Shown here in pieces: positions 17,948 through 25,428 of a DNA stretch of 39,741 nucleotides. Below the pieces are notes generated by a model. That model saw nothing but the letters and a program-made list of their open reading frames with translations. It was not told the DNA's origin and made no database searches. Position 1 is the stretch's first letter, and every line of letters begins with the position of its first letter. The DNA lies in contig JAUNMN010000007.1 of assembly GCA_030531795.1 (NCBI GenBank), positions 10,842 to 50,582 on the forward strand, in the 5' to 3' direction. Source of the DNA: Neisseria sp. GTDB taxonomy: Bacteria > Pseudomonadota > Gammaproteobacteria > Burkholderiales > Neisseriaceae. A program made the position numbers and the translations under genes.

Positions 17948-19126
17948 TCATCGCACTAGCGTGTAAACCAGCATGCCGATGTAGTTGCCGATGATGTAGC
18001 CGACTGTGCCGACCAGTAAAATCGGGCCGACCAAACCACGCCAACCTTTGCTGATGGCAAGCGCGGCGGCGGTTGTTGGGCCGCCGATGTTGGCATTACA
18101 CGCCAACACGATTTCTTCCACGCTGAATCGCAACAACTTGCCCACTAAAAGCGTGAACAGCAAATTCAATACCGCGATGATTAAGGTAAACACAAACAGC
18201 AAAGGCGCGTTGGCAAAAATCAACTCAATCGACGCGGGAATGCCGATGACCACAAAAAACAAATAAATGCCATACATGCCCAGCTCTTGACTGCCCACCA
18301 GTTTGCGACTTTGTCCGCGAAACACCGTAATGAACAGCAAAGTCAAGCTGGTGAGCAGCAAATATTTGTCGCTCACCAAAGCAAACAGCAATTCTTCCGC
18401 CACATTGTCGCCCGCGCCCAGCCACGCTTTCATCGCTTTAGACACGCTAAACGCAATCGCCACCAAAGCCACCGCCGCCGCAAACGACAAAGCAATGTTT
18501 TGCAAAGAAATTTCTTTGGCTTTCCAGTAATTGCCCTGTTCAACTTCGTATGAAGCGTTGGCAGAACTGCCCCAGGTTCGGCGCACCCAAGCGCTGCCTG
18601 CCACGCCGATTAAGATGAAAAAGTAACACGCCATCATCAAATTATCGGCAACAATCGCTGCGGCGGTCATGGTTTGGCTGGGTTCTAAACGCGCCGTCAT
18701 TGCCGCGAAATTCACGCCACCGCCCGTGTATGATGCCGAAATCATGCCAGCGAGTTTGTCCAACTCGGGAATGTGTTTGGACAATAAAGCAAACGCCGCC
18801 AGCGTGCCAATAATCGTGCCAAGCGAGCTAATCAGAAAAATAATCAGCAAACGTCCGCTTTCCTTAAACAGCGCGTGCATGTCCAGCTGAAACAGCAAAA
18901 GCGGAATCGCCAGCGGCACGATGTAGCCCCAAACCGCGTCGTAAACAGGCGCATCGGTTGGAATCAGCCCCAAATTAGATGCGCCCAAACCGATGATGAG
19001 CGCAATCACCGCCCCAGGAATTTTGCCACCAAAGCGCGGATGTTGTTCGAGCAAGATGGACACTGTTGCGCCCACCATCAAAAATGCCCACAAAAGCAAA
19101 TGGTTGTCGGCTGCGATTAAAGTCAT
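17948..19126 (-). CDS. DUF819 family integral membrane protein
   Basis: A 392-residue polytopic inner-membrane protein of the DUF819 (YjcL-like) family, with roughly ten to eleven helices. The start at 19126 (MTLIAADNHLLLWAFLMVG) has the strong ribosome binding site AAAGGAGAA; the 43 codons upstream begin in a DUS (MPSA) and are rejected. Typical blocks are GGKIPGAVIALIIGLGASNLGLIPTDAPVYD, ASYTGGGVNFAAM and ACNANIGGPTTAAALA. The glycine-rich re-entrant motifs resemble those of secondary transporters of the CPA/sodium-glutamate type, so a carrier role is possible; substrate is unknown. Confidence 0.88.
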   Translation of the reverse strand: MTLIAADNHLLLWAFLMVGATVSILLEQHPRFGGKIPGAVIALIIGLGASNLGLIPTDAPVYDAVWGYIVPLAIPLLLFQLDMHALFKESGRLLIIFLISSLGTIIGTLAAFALLSKHIPELDKLAGMISASYTGGGVNFAAMTARLEPSQTMTAAAIVADNLMMACYFFILIGVAGSAWVRRTWGSSANASYEVEQGNYWKAKEISLQNIALSFAAAVALVAIAFSVSKAMKAWLGAGDNVAEELLFALVSDKYLLLTSLTLLFITVFRGQSRKLVGSQELGMYGIYLFFVVIGIPASIELIFANAPLLFVFTLIIAVLNLLFTLLVGKLLRFSVEEIVLACNANIGGPTTAAALAISKGWRGLVGPILLVGTVGYIIGNYIGMLVYTLVR

Positions 19127-19311
19127 GATGTTCTCCTTTGTTGTAGATGATGTTTTGATTTTATGACTTGATTTGAATAATTTTATGAAACAAGCTGCAG
19201 CGAAATAGTAGCCGAAAAAACAGGCTCGCTTCAAGCAAGAAACTGCAGACGGCATCGCAACGCTTGCACTTCGCCTGCAGACGGCATCAAAAACAAATAA
19301 TAAACAGCGTG

Positions 19312-21282: not shown

Positions 21283-22536
21283 TCACAGATAACGATTCAA
21301 ACCCAAATCATCGGCTTGAATTTCGGGCGTGTTACCACTCACCAAATCCGCCGCCAACTTGCCCGAACCCGCGCCCATCGTCCAACCTAAAGTGCCGTGT
21401 CCTGTGTTGAGCGTTAAATTTTCCCAACCACACGCGCCAATCAGCGGTACGCTGTCGGGTGTCATCGGACGCAAACCGCTCCAAAAACGCGCGTTTTTCA
21501 TGTCGCCGCTGTTCGGAAACAAATCATTGACCACCAACTCTAAAGTTTGGCGACGCGCTGGACTTAAATGAATTTCGTAGCCCGACAATTCCGCCGTACC
21601 GCCCACGCGAATGCGTTCGCCCAAACGCGTCAATGCCACTTTATACGTCTCATCCAACACCGTAGACTGCGGTGCGGCGGCGGCATCGGTAATCGGAATC
21701 GTCAGTGAATAGCCTTTCACAGGGTAAACAGGCAATTTCAAACCCAATTGTTCCAAGGCTGGGCGACTGAAACTGCCCAAAGCGCACACAAAATGGTCGG
21801 CTTCAAAACGTTTGCCGCCTGCACGTACTGCCGTAATCCGTTTGCCTTCAAATTCCAAACGTTCAATCGCGTGATTGAAATAAAATTTCACGCCATTTTC
21901 TTGGCACAAAGCCGCCAATTTTTGGGTGAACAAATGACAATCGCCCGTTTCGTCGTTCGGCAAATGCAAAGCCCCAGCCAATTTGCCTGCAGTTTTCGCC
22001 AAAGCGGGTTCAAATTGCACGCACTCGCTGGCACTCAATTCCTGAAACGGCACGCCATATTCCGCCAACACCGCCATATCGCTTTTTGCCGCCTGCACTT
22101 CTTTTTCGGTGCGAAAAATCTGCAAAGTGCCTTTTTGTTGACCGTCAAACTCAATGCCCGTTTCGTTCACCAAATCGCGAAACATCGCACGGCTGTATTC
22201 CGAAATCCGCACCATGCGTTCTTTGTTTTTCTTGTAACGCGCGTTGGTGCAGTTGTGCAACATTTGGCGCATCCACTCAAACTGAAAACAGCTGCCATCG
22301 GGGCGCATAATCAAAGGCGAATGCGGACGCAACAACCATTTCGCTGCCTTCAAAGGAATGCTTGGCGCTGCCCAAGGCGTGGTGTAGCCATAAGACAATT
22401 GCCCCGCATTCGCAAAACTGGTTTCCTCCGCTGCCCCTGAAGCACGGTCAATCACCACCACTTCATGCCCAGCTTGCTGCAAAAACCACGCGGTGTTCAC
22501 GCCAATCACGCCCGCGCCCAAAACCACGACTTTCAT
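21283..22536 (-). CDS. dadA: D-amino acid dehydrogenase, small subunit
   Basis: DadA is a membrane-associated FAD enzyme that oxidises D-amino acids, mainly D-Ala to pyruvate and ammonia, passing electrons to the respiratory chain. The 417-residue protein begins with the Rossmann FAD motif [17 protein letters not shown] (G7, G9, G12) and contains [18 protein letters not shown] and, near the C-terminus, [14 protein letters not shown] and [18 protein letters not shown], all characteristic. The start at 22536 has AAGGAGAA. It is divergent from lrp across 149 AT-rich bases, the classical place for Lrp control of dad genes. Confidence 0.95.
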
Positions 22537-22593
22537 CTTTTTCTCCTTGATGTTGTGTTTCAATTGTGTGTCAAAATTGTTTGTTTAGTGAAG

Positions 22594-22685: not shown

Positions 22686-23156
22686 ATGACCATGAAAGAA
22701 TTAGACAAAACCGACCGCAAAATTCTTGCCCAACTCCAAGAAAATGCACGTATTCCAATGACCGAATTAGCAGAAAAAGTGGGACTGTCCACCACGCCCG
22801 TAACCGAACGCGTTCGCCGTTTGGAACGCGAAGGCATCATCACAGGCTACCACGCCCACTTAAATCCACACGCTTTAGGGCAAAGTCTGCTGGTTTTTGT
22901 AGAAATAAAACTACAATCCAAATCAGGCAACATCTTTGAAGAATTTCGTCGCGAAGTGTTGAAAGTGCCGCAAATTTTAGAATGCCATTTGGTTTCAGGC
23001 GAATACGACTACCTAATCAAAGTCCGCCTGCCCAATATGTCGGCGTACCGCAATATGCTCGGCAATATTTTGCTGCAACTGCCTGCCGCCAGCGAAAGCC
23101 GCAGCTATGTGGTGATGGAAGAAGTGAAAGAAGACAGCTTGCTGAAATTAGATTGA
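22686..23156 (+). CDS. lrp: Lrp/AsnC family transcriptional regulator
   Basis: A 156-residue feast/famine regulator. The N-terminal winged helix-turn-helix (LDKTDRKILAQLQENARIPMTELAEKVGLSTTPVTERVRRLEREGII, residues about 5-52) is followed by the ligand-binding RAM domain (VFVEIKLQSK ... CHLVSGEYDYLIKVRLPNM). It closely resembles enterobacterial Lrp, including the ligand-pocket GEYDYL. A second ATG at 22692 is an equally possible start; neither has a clear Shine-Dalgarno sequence. It is divergent from dadA, and two small RNAs on the opposite strand converge on it. In Neisseria meningitidis, as I recall, the sibling sRNAs also lie beside an lrp gene. Confidence 0.93.
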   Translation: MTMKELDKTDRKILAQLQENARIPMTELAEKVGLSTTPVTERVRRLEREGIITGYHAHLNPHALGQSLLVFVEIKLQSKSGNIFEEFRREVLKVPQILECHLVSGEYDYLIKVRLPNMSAYRNMLGNILLQLPAASESRSYVVMEEVKEDSLLKLD

Positions 23157-23249
23157 ACCAACTCATCGCCAGCCAAACCCAAATCGCAGCTTGAAAATTG
23201 AAAAATTGAATGGCTTTGTGAAATTTATTCGCTTTAAAAAGCAAAACCT

Positions 23250-23329
23250 TGCCGTCTGCATTGCCGTTTCCAACGATGAAACCCGTTTTTCATTTCACAT
23301 TCATCGTTGCCCAACATCGCAGACGGCAT
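23250..23329. terminator. Nested hairpin downstream of lrp
   Basis: An outer DUS pair (23250-23260 and 23319-23329) encloses a perfect inner 10-bp inverted repeat, CAACGATGAA at 23271-23280 with TTCATCGTTG at 23300-23309. It lies 94 bases after the lrp stop and about 110 bases beyond the end of the nearer small RNA, so it could stop transcription from either side. Confidence 0.55.
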
Positions 23330-23438
23330 CGTCTATTCAGCCAAACGAAAAAACAAAACAACAATTTTCGATTTCAAACACAATTCATTCAATAAACAAC
23401 AAAAAATCGCAGAAAACGAAAATCTGTAAGCAAAAGAC

Positions 23439-23530
23439 AAAAAAATGCACACATTTTTTCAAATGTGTGCCAAGTCTACAAAGGAGAAATAGAGGAGAAA
23501 CTGTCAAGCAGCCAGCTCAGCTACTCAACG
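23439..23530 (-). ncRNA. Sibling small RNA 1 (NmsR/RcoF-like), promoter-distal copy
   Basis: A minus-strand sRNA of about 91 nt. Promoter: -35 TTGACG (23560-23565), 17-base spacer, -10 CATAAT (23537-23542), start near 23530. Stem-loop 1 pairs 23520-23529 with 23503-23512 (10 bp with three G-U) around a seven-base loop. Then comes a single-stranded CU-rich stretch with two anti-SD motifs (TTTCTCCTCTATTTCTCC). The terminator is GCACACATTT/AAATGTGTGC (23447-23470) with a GAAA loop and a run of seven T. The 3' 70 bases (23435-23504) are identical to the second copy at 23773-23842. Architecture, tandem pairing and the lrp neighbour match the meningococcal and gonococcal sibling sRNAs that repress metabolic mRNAs by covering ribosome binding sites. 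Homology was not tested by alignment. Confidence 0.85.
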
Positions 23531-23536
23531 GACGCA

Positions 23537-23565
23537 ATTATGCGCCAAAGCATTTTACACGTCAA
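23537..23565 (-). promoter_or_regulatory. Sigma70 promoter of sibling sRNA 1
   Basis: TTGACG and CATAAT with a 17-base spacer on the minus strand. The segment between the -10 box and the start (TGCGTCC) is GC-rich, a feature often linked to stringent control. Confidence 0.8.
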
Positions 23566-23776
23566 GACAATATCTTAAACTTTGCAATTCTTAAGCCGAT
23601 ATTTGCACATCTCAACGGTTTAGAAAAAATGTTTAAAAGAAAACTTCATTTTGTATTCAAAACAACAAAAAATTTTCGTTTATATTCAAATTTCATCTAT
23701 CGAATTCTCAACCGCCGATTTTCAGCAAAATATTCAGCCAAACCGCGCAAAACAAATCCAAACAAAATCTGCAGAC

Positions 23777-23864
23777 AAAAAAATGCACACATTTTTTCAA
23801 ATGTGTGCCAAGTCTACAAAGGAGAAATAGAGGAGAAACTGTTCAATTGCCTAACAACTGAACG
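23777..23864 (-). ncRNA. Sibling small RNA 2 (NmsR/RcoF-like), promoter-proximal copy
   Basis: A minus-strand sRNA of about 87 nt, 338 bases from its twin. Promoter: TTGACG (23894-23899), 17-base spacer, TATAGT (23871-23876), start near 23863. Stem-loop 1 pairs GTTCAGTTG (23855-23863) with CAATTGAAC (23841-23849), nine bp with one G-U, loop TTAGG. The anti-SD stretch and terminator (hairpin 23785-23808, seven T at 23777-23783) are identical to copy 1. The stem-loop 1 sequences differ between twins yet both fold, so the hairpin itself is conserved. An open frame of 239 codons runs across both sRNAs on the other strand but is low-complexity and not a gene. Confidence 0.85.
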
Positions 23865-23870
23865 AAGCGA

Positions 23871-23899
23871 ACTATACGCCTTCGTTTTTGCAACGTCAA
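23871..23899 (-). promoter_or_regulatory. Sigma70 promoter of sibling sRNA 2
   Basis: TTGACG, 17 bases, TATAGT: near-consensus on the minus strand. The discriminator TCGCTTC is GC-rich, as in the twin. Confidence 0.82.
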
Positions 23900-24027
23900 G
23901 CGTATTTTGAAATAATCCAACAAATTTACACTCAAAACCGCTTTTTTAACGAAAATTTATTACCTTTATTGTTTTGTTTTATCAAAAATGGCTTTGTGTT
24001 ATTCATTTCAAACGCTCTTCAAAGCAT

Positions 24028-24059
24028 ATGCCGTCTGCAATTTCAAACTGCAGACGGCA
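24028..24059. terminator. DUS-pair hairpin downstream of the DUF3482 GTPase gene
   Basis: DUS at 24028-24039 and inverted copy at 24049-24059 with a nine-base loop, 32 bases past the stop on the minus strand and upstream of the sRNA promoters, which it may insulate. Confidence 0.6.
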
Positions 24060-24090
24060 CGCATGACACTTTGATTTTAAAGTATATTTT

Positions 24091-25428
24091 TTATCCACTT
24101 TTCAATGTTCGGCTCAATTGTTCCGCATATTCCGCTCTAGCTTCTTGCGCACTTGGTTCAGAATAGCCGTTCAAAGCCGACCATTTTTCACGACTACGCG
24201 CTTTGTTGAGTGCAGACGGCAACTCGCCATTTTGCCAAGGTGCGTGCTGATTTTGCACCACCACCGCTTGTTGTGCCGCGTGTCCACGCGCTTGTAATGC
24301 CTGCAACACTTCCAAAGCACGCGCGGCAAGCAAAGTGAGCGTGGCTGCGTCTAAAAACAAGGTTTGTTTGCCCTGCAATTTGTCGCTGATGCTTTGCACA
24401 TTCGGCAACACGCCGCCGATGACGCTGCCGATTGCCGTTCCCAAACCCAAAGTGCCGCCCAAGCTGATGATGTCTATGCCCATGCCGAGCAACGCACCTG
24501 TCGCCGCGCCTTTGCCCGTGCGTATGCCGTAGTTTTGCAATAAATCCAAATCAAATGGATCTTGACGCAAGGTTTTGAGTTCCAAATCCGCCAAAGTCAA
24601 GCTGGGCTGATAAAAGCGATACAATTGAAACAGCTGATGATGCAGCTGACGTTCCAGTTGTCGCACGGTGTTTTGCATTTGATTGAATGTGGCACTATTA
24701 TCTTCATCTTCGTCAATTTCTTGCTTGTACGCGGCAATATTGAGCAGAAAATGGCTGATTTGCAAACGTGCTTGCTCGTCAAGTTGCGCCCACTCTTTGC
24801 GTCGCGTGTGCATCAAATTATCCAACACTTCGCGTTGCGTCCCCATCGCCGCCAAGTTGTCCCACAAACGCATTTCTCCTTCAAAATCAAAGGCAACCGT
24901 ATCAAAACTGCTGTAAACATGCAGGCTGCGTCTTGCCAACATTTCCACCCACTCGCTCAAATCTTGTTCGGCAATGAAATTAAACACAGGCATCACAGGC
25001 TTGGCACACCACGACAACACACTCAATTCGTCTTTGTATTTCGCCAACACAGGTTCGCGCGCGTCAATCACATACAAAGCCACTTCGCTTTGCAACAGTT
25101 GGCGCAACACTTTAGCTTCTTGATTGAAATCGCCCGCCGACGCTTCGCTCGCCAAAAACGCTTCGATGCGTTCGATGCCGTCTGCACGTGGCGAGGTGTG
25201 CTGTTCCAGCCAGTCCAACACGCCGCCAGCGTCTTCCAAACCTGGCGTGTCAAACAAATACACAAAGGTTTGCTCGCCATCGACTATGCTGGCACGTTCC
25301 ACATGCCGCGTGGTCGCTGCTGCATTTTTCACTTCTCCAAACTCACCATCGCGCAATAAAGTGCGCAGCAGCGAAGTCTTGCCTGTGTTGGTATGCCCCA
25401 CCACTGCTAAATTCAAAGGTTTACTCAT
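24091..25428 (-). CDS. GTPase with DUF3482 C-terminal domain
   Basis: A 445-residue protein: an N-terminal Era/YjeQ-like GTPase domain followed by a DUF3482 region. G1 is GHTNTGKTS (residues 11-19), G3 is DTPG in YLFDTPGLEDAG; the G4 position reads NFIAEQD instead of NKxD, so base specificity is uncertain. The C-terminal half has a glycine-rich hydrophobic segment (GAATGALLGMGIDIISLGGTLGLGTAIGSVIGGVLP) that can insert in or lie on a membrane. It is 41 bases behind the DUF2868 gene on the same strand. The two families are typically encoded side by side. The cellular role is unknown. Confidence 0.85.
   Translation of the reverse strand: MSKPLNLAVVGHTNTGKTSLLRTLLRDGEFGEVKNAAATTRHVERASIVDGEQTFVYLFDTPGLEDAGGVLDWLEQHTSPRADGIERIEAFLASEASAGDFNQEAKVLRQLLQSEVALYVIDAREPVLAKYKDELSVLSWCAKPVMPVFNFIAEQDLSEWVEMLARRSLHVYSSFDTVAFDFEGEMRLWDNLAAMGTQREVLDNLMHTRRKEWAQLDEQARLQISHFLLNIAAYKQEIDEDEDNSATFNQMQNTVRQLERQLHHQLFQLYRFYQPSLTLADLELKTLRQDPFDLDLLQNYGIRTGKGAATGALLGMGIDIISLGGTLGLGTAIGSVIGGVLPNVQSISDKLQGKQTLFLDAATLTLLAARALEVLQALQARGHAAQQAVVVQNQHAPWQNGELPSALNKARSREKWSALNGYSEPSAQEARAEYAEQLSRTLKSG

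Follow-up and report, generated by a model that had tools for sequence, protein, structure and literature searches.

The window analysed here, 39,741 nucleotides of a Neisseria sp. genome, carries two small RNA genes in tandem, which very probably are sibling trans-acting sRNAs of the NmsR (RcoF / NgncR_162-163) family and would work by that family's mechanism. Anatomy, family membership, conservation and place of the locus were observed directly. The locus is a new member of a family already known from N. meningitidis and N. gonorrhoeae, and nearly all of the 83 Neisseriaceae genomes examined contain this regulator, which has been studied in those two pathogens.

Two NmsR-family genes in the window

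A cmscan search of the whole window against Rfam 15 returned two matches above the gathering score, both to RF02877 NmsRb (RcoF1/NgncR163). They score 100.2 bits (23531-23441) and 95.3 bits (23865-23779) against a gathering score of 52, with the full model covered, and a search of the whole genome, an 86%-complete draft, found only these two copies. NmsRA/NmsRB (RcoF) of N. meningitidis and NgncR_162/NgncR_163 of N. gonorrhoeae are likewise tandem siblings, with three hairpins and two anti-Shine-Dalgarno (anti-SD) motifs. An earlier note on this DNA had proposed orthology with these RNAs, which is borne out by the two scores and by an architecture and place as in the meningococcal siblings, the Rfam model, N. 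bergeri and named loci standing in for the N. meningitidis and N. gonorrhoeae sequences themselves. Assigned by position, sRNA 1 would be the counterpart of NmsRB and sRNA 2 that of NmsRA. The features of the locus are as follows.

23441..23531, minus strand: sRNA gene 1, lrp-proximal sibling (RF02877 100.2 bits, model 1-91; fold z -3.8)
23779..23865, minus strand: sRNA gene 2, lrp-distal sibling (RF02877 95.3 bits, model 1-91; fold z -5.0)
23537..23565, minus strand: promoter-like site of sRNA 1, TTGACG-17-CATAAT (10/12 consensus positions; comparable sites upstream of relatives)
23871..23899, minus strand: promoter-like site of sRNA 2, TTGACG-17-TATAGT (10/12 consensus positions)
23435..23504, minus strand: 70-bp repeat copy 1 (last part of hairpin 1, core and terminator, plus a few further bases)
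23773..23842, minus strand: 70-bp repeat copy 2
23475..23500, minus strand: 26-nt core TTTCTCCTCTATTTCTCCTTTGTAGA of sRNA 1 (anti-SD motifs 23494-23500 and 23483-23489)
23813..23838, minus strand: 26-nt core TTTCTCCTCTATTTCTCCTTTGTAGA of sRNA 2 (anti-SD motifs 23832-23838 and 23821-23827)
23447..23470, minus strand: intrinsic terminator stem-loop of sRNA 1
23785..23808, minus strand: intrinsic terminator stem-loop of sRNA 2
22686..23156, plus strand: lrp (Lrp/AsnC regulator), convergent neighbour; start may be 22692 (Pfam HTH_AsnC-type, AsnC_trans_reg)
21283..22563, minus strand: dadA (D-amino acid dehydrogenase), likely start 22536 (NF001933 654.8 bits); predicted target
24091..25428, minus strand: DUF3482 GTPase gene, promoter-side neighbour (PF11981)

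The 70-bp perfect direct repeat from which the earlier note set out lies exactly where it had been placed (23435-23504 and 23773-23842, spacing 338 nt) and is beyond chance. On the minus strand, the order in each unit is promoter-like site, hairpin 1, a linker with CUCC, a short hairpin with CUCC in its loop, and terminator. The near-consensus promoters with a 17-base spacer that had been claimed are recognizable as two promoter-like pairs, matching at 10 of 12 positions each, and both pairs sit outside the repeat, within diverged sequence; a 5' hairpin and an intrinsic terminator were likewise recovered for each copy in scans and folds. The claim of two CTCC motifs in a single-stranded stretch stands in part: both motifs are present in each copy, but the stretch is not one unbroken single strand, the first motif lying in the linker after hairpin 1 and the second, according to the fold, in the loop of the short hairpin. 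This pair of anti-SD motifs in linker and hairpin-2 loop is an NmsR feature present in both window RNAs, and the arrangement as tandem siblings with separate promoter-like sites beside lrp is another. Both RNAs fold better than 200 of 200 shuffles (z -3.8 and -5.0). Scans of 23000-24500 gave 7 promoter-like sites where 2.5 are expected and 4 terminator-like sites where 2.7 are expected, two of the latter being the sRNA terminators; taken alone, these scans mean little.

Since 26 nt of the repeat are a core that is near family-wide, the distinctive feature of this genome is that both copies have the same 3' part, terminator included. Of 53 within-genome pairs, 8 (from 8 genomes) have the same 3' segment in both copies and 45 differ there, and no pair has the same hairpin-1 segment. 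Identical 3' parts beside diverged hairpins 1 and promoters suggest gene conversion of core and terminator between siblings, and the pattern in genus g10, where the terminators are identical within each of two genomes and different between them, is as gene conversion would give. Siblings converted in this way would keep one target set, and the regulation of each would be free to differ.

The genome was also said to have a different DUS dialect, and its DUS-like words agree, with 403 GCCGTCTGCA against 3 GCCGTCTGAA in 327,685 bases. The DUS-like word ATGCCGTCTGCA occurs in the window, e.g. at 23251, 24030, 24049 and 24211; the string is absent from the text of PMC3630211, its figure with eight dialects apart.

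Mechanism and predicted targets

By analogy with the relatives, each RNA would be transcribed from its own sigma-70 promoter, and its two CU-rich anti-SD motifs (linker; hairpin-2 loop) would pair with the Shine-Dalgarno (SD) region of mRNAs for glycine, serine and alanine use, D-amino-acid oxidation, the citric and methylcitric acid cycles, and transport. Such pairing would block 30S binding and lower translation. Repression by occlusion of the ribosome-binding site (RBS) is described for N. meningitidis and N. gonorrhoeae, including dadA, glyA and gcvT, in the available portions of PMC5362039, PMC9973317 and PMC13104608; PMC9973317 reports glyA as a target in N. gonorrhoeae, and in PMC5362039 sdhC is a putative target only.

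The neighbouring dadA mRNA is a likely target in this genome. The dadA RBS in the window is CAUCAAGGAGAAAAAGAUG, with AAGGAGAAA complementary to the anti-SD loop, and its predicted duplex with the core ranks 13 among 269 genes from the window and 20 further stretches of this genome. For the other literature targets the predicted ranks are 24 (gcvT), 58 (gltA), 94 (glyA) and 131 (sdhC). The set consists of five genes chosen from papers, the AGCS symporter being left out since it was picked after its high rank; gene starts were set by rule, and some top-ranked pairing entries are probably wrong starts. Target prediction for the window sRNAs is suggestive only.

The window RNAs might be NmsR homologues in sequence with a mainly different target set here, in which case the dadA complementarity would reflect a strong SD only. 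The ranking lends this some weight, as the five targets are enriched at p 0.02 but no longer after correction for SD strength (p 0.18; SD strength alone 0.004), and sdhC and glyA rank poorly; the anti-SD core is, however, unchanged in nearly all family copies, and predicted pairing of dadA exceeds that of alr in 8 paired loci (p 0.016), where the dadA SD is also the stronger. A different target set is considered unlikely, and the preferred reading remains that of NmsR siblings with the family's mechanism.

Further glycine-cleavage genes outside the five, named by sequence reading, rank 64 (gcvP-like frame) and 121 (gcvH-like frame). Predicted pairing with the core also places an AGCS amino acid carrier at rank 5, an ActP acetate symporter at rank 3 and a gene without an NCBIfam match at rank 12 of 269.

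L274:10081-11457: AGCS amino acid carrier gene
L274:13037-14722: ActP acetate symporter gene
17948-19255 of the window: gene without NCBIfam match

A search for citrate synthases in this genome found gltA and no second gene that could be prpC, and the chaperone Hfq, an expected partner of NmsR RNAs, had no match in the 86%-complete draft.

Conservation and neighbourhood of the family

A covariance-model search of Neisseriaceae, as the earlier note had advised, places the family in 78 of 83 genomes. RF02877 matches 74 of them, 71 above the cut-off, with no match in 9 of the 83 and in none of 14 control genomes. The Betaproteobacteria toxic sRNA model RF02278 matches at 122 places in 75 of the 83 genomes, and 118 of these overlap RF02877 places; the only ones away from RF02877, in G058, G061, G063 and G064, are weak NmsR-like matches which add four genomes, and three of these loci (G058, G063, G064), read directly, contain an NmsR-like core. 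Neither model matches in G018, G041, G057, G060 and G073, three of which are 58-81% complete. Among 399 sampled genomes of the order, RF02877 matches 56, in 30 cases above the cut-off. In 45 Neisseriaceae genomes, at least two copies have a near-intact core; they lie in tandem in 36 and apart in 9, and each of three genomes in genus g4 of this family carries three copies.

An exact core TTTCTCCTCTATTTCTCCTTTGTAGA is present in 116 of 123 Neisseriaceae copies and in 13 of 16 loci of three further families of the order (f28, 5/5; f51, 5/7; f33, 3/4), and in none of four loci of family f14, where 15 of 26 positions match. That the core passes unchanged into other families suggests that this RNA, an imitation of the ribosome's anti-SD end, is under strong constraint. 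Hairpin 1 and the terminator are variable, with pairing mostly kept. Covariation supports the structure: in 27 sequences from 4 families, hand-picked for spread from 143 NmsR-type sequences, 94.0% of cells are paired and 75 cells are changed on both sides, where shuffles give 26.3 and none of 500 reaches 75; a weaker count, of pairs with both-side change, gives 10 against 7.0 (3 of 500), a value reached also by two slid controls. The core hairpin, because it is invariant, says nothing on covariation. Among the 143 upstream regions, 83 match a promoter at 10 or more of 12 positions, against 4 of 715 shuffled ones, and 127 have a 17-nt spacer, which the scoring favoured. Relatives with conserved promoter-like sites, anti-SD stretch and terminator were found across the family. 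Two variants were seen: an sRNA of Neisseria genome G048 (L160:3981-4083) has an additional CTCTATTTCTCC unit and with it three CUCC motifs, and an NmsR-like RNA of family f5 (L257:4017-4104) seemingly lacks one CUCC motif, with a DUF2863-like neighbour kept.

In the window, the sRNAs and lrp are convergent, and 278 nt separate the lrp stop from the repeat; the best NCBIfam match of this lrp is Lrp itself, at 207 bits, below the cut-off of 233. Beyond lrp, downstream of the sRNAs, lie dadA and alr, and on the promoter side the DUF3482 GTPase gene and a DUF2868 gene. Synteny with lrp, dadA and alr counts in favour of the NmsR reading. Promoter-like sites, terminator and a convergent place beside lrp are common to this locus and the NmsR siblings, which in N. 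meningitidis lie between dsbB and lrp according to the available text of PMC5362039; in the window, dsbB is not a neighbour and the DUF3482 gene stands there instead. Records of N. bergeri and N. polysaccharea have both siblings beside lrp, and genomes G013 and G031 have dsbB on the other side. The gene dsbB was not counted as defining NmsR, since just 6 of 87 Neisseriaceae loci have it as one of the three closest genes.

The link to lrp that had been put forward holds for the window and N. meningitidis and is partial across the family. Of 74 genomes with a match, 37 have a gene with at least 60% identity to this lrp in the fetched flank (including G050, matched by a short piece alone), always on the opposite strand and within 1 kb in 27; the 37 without it include G005 and G007, where the contig ends close by. 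Nine named loci from the lrp search, in Neisseriaceae or relatives, have RF02877 within the fetched flank in five (L032, L033, L035, L036, L037) and no match there in four (L034, L038, L039, L061). Outside Neisseriaceae, none of 21 NmsR-type loci read has an lrp like that of the window. As a general partner of the family, lrp was consequently not upheld.

Convergence at this distance, and the frequency of a nearby lrp on the opposite strand in Neisseriaceae, could also mean that the link is functional and that the sRNAs have a local effect on lrp, through antisense pairing with a long 3' UTR of its mRNA or through transcription interference. This is very improbable, given the half of the genomes without lrp in the flank and its absence from the loci outside the family, and given that NmsR levels were not significantly changed by Lrp deletion or overexpression in meningococci, according to the portion of PMC5362039 available. 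Least credible of all, to the point of being negligible, is the view that a mobile or intergenic element, or a piece of coding sequence, accounts for the repeat: an open frame of 239 aa (23191-23910, plus strand) does cover it, but this frame has no Pfam match even at E 1 and the draft genome holds only two copies, on which grounds the coding and mobile-repeat readings were rejected, and relatives keep the structure, promoter-like sites and terminator of an sRNA pair. The RF02877 scores, the spread of the family through Neisseriaceae and the covariation contradict this view as well.

For the NmsR-family RNAs outside Neisseriaceae, the commonest neighbour is a DUF2863-like gene, beside or near the RNA in 12 of the 21 loci (f28, 4/5; f33, 3/4; f51, 3/7; f14, 1/4; f5, one locus), the DUF2863 assignment of that protein cluster being weak at 22 bits against a cut-off of 25. 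The gene glyA is near the RNA in 2 of 5 loci of f28 and 2 of 7 of f51. In genus g4, glyA and a DUF2863-like gene lie on one side, with lrp on the other in the two genomes whose contig is long enough. These patterns suggest that the DUF2863 side came first and that the lrp side is a Neisseriaceae feature.

Relation to the RF02278 RNAs

Grouped with RF02278 are ncS03, ncS05, ncS27, ncS62 and bdhR1 of Burkholderia and S17 of Bordetella. Like NmsR, these RNAs have a pair of CUCC-type anti-SD motifs separated by a short hairpin, together with a strong terminator; unlike those of the window, they mostly have a CUCCUCCAUCCUCC-type core and are often near coq7, osmC or argC. The window RNAs score 32.9 bits with RF02278, under its gathering score of 50, and do not belong to it. 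The comparisons moderately favour the view that NmsR and RF02278 are ancient paralogues within one class of anti-SD sRNA. Three families would keep both at different loci, NmsR often by a DUF2863-like gene and the S17 type near coq7, osmC or argC; Neisseriaceae would have lost the S17 type, moved NmsR beside lrp and duplicated it, and in some species, this one included, gene conversion would keep the shared part of the siblings alike.

Both types coexist in all 12 genomes read for both (f28, 5; f33, 3; f51, 4). RF02278 is above its cut-off in none of the 83 Neisseriaceae genomes, against 143 of 399 in the order; several S17-type copies in f28, f33 and f51 genomes fall below that cut-off, so that this absence is weaker than proof. 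Outside Neisseriaceae, f28, f33 and f51, at least 22 of 24 RF02877 places coincide with RF02278 places, the remaining two being in G126 and G371. A model built from 27 NmsR-type sequences only, R1, matches 39 of 40 loci of the RF02278 type or of the intermediate f14 and f5 types (E at most 0.0083); these loci were preselected by Rfam matches, and the test concerns a match at the expected place, not its frequency. Its one miss, L221, is itself a weak RF02278 match (31.8 bits), and two further matches of R1 lie elsewhere (E 0.11 and 0.48). In 42 control loci (509,870 bases of lrp neighbourhoods, mostly Pseudomonas), R1 finds nothing at E at most 1. In a third search, a match at the Aquitalea locus L039 (19 bits, E 0.065) was not counted.

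The likeness of NmsR and RF02278 may be convergence of two anti-SD RNAs. Sass et al. describe the Burkholderia RNAs as structurally similar to NmsRs in the available part of PMC5688073, and a preprint ties S17 to bdhR1, the word Neisseria being absent from its text as available (PMC11722255); within the texts accessible, a literature search found no paper joining the Neisseria, Burkholderia and Bordetella RNAs. If common ancestry of NmsR and RF02278 is true, the work on these three genera concerns one regulator, and the target lists become comparable.

Run across the class, R1 produced 5 weak matches outside the order among 274 genomes. Four loci found by R1 outside the order (L286, L287, L288 and L289) all have a sub-threshold RF02278 match as well.
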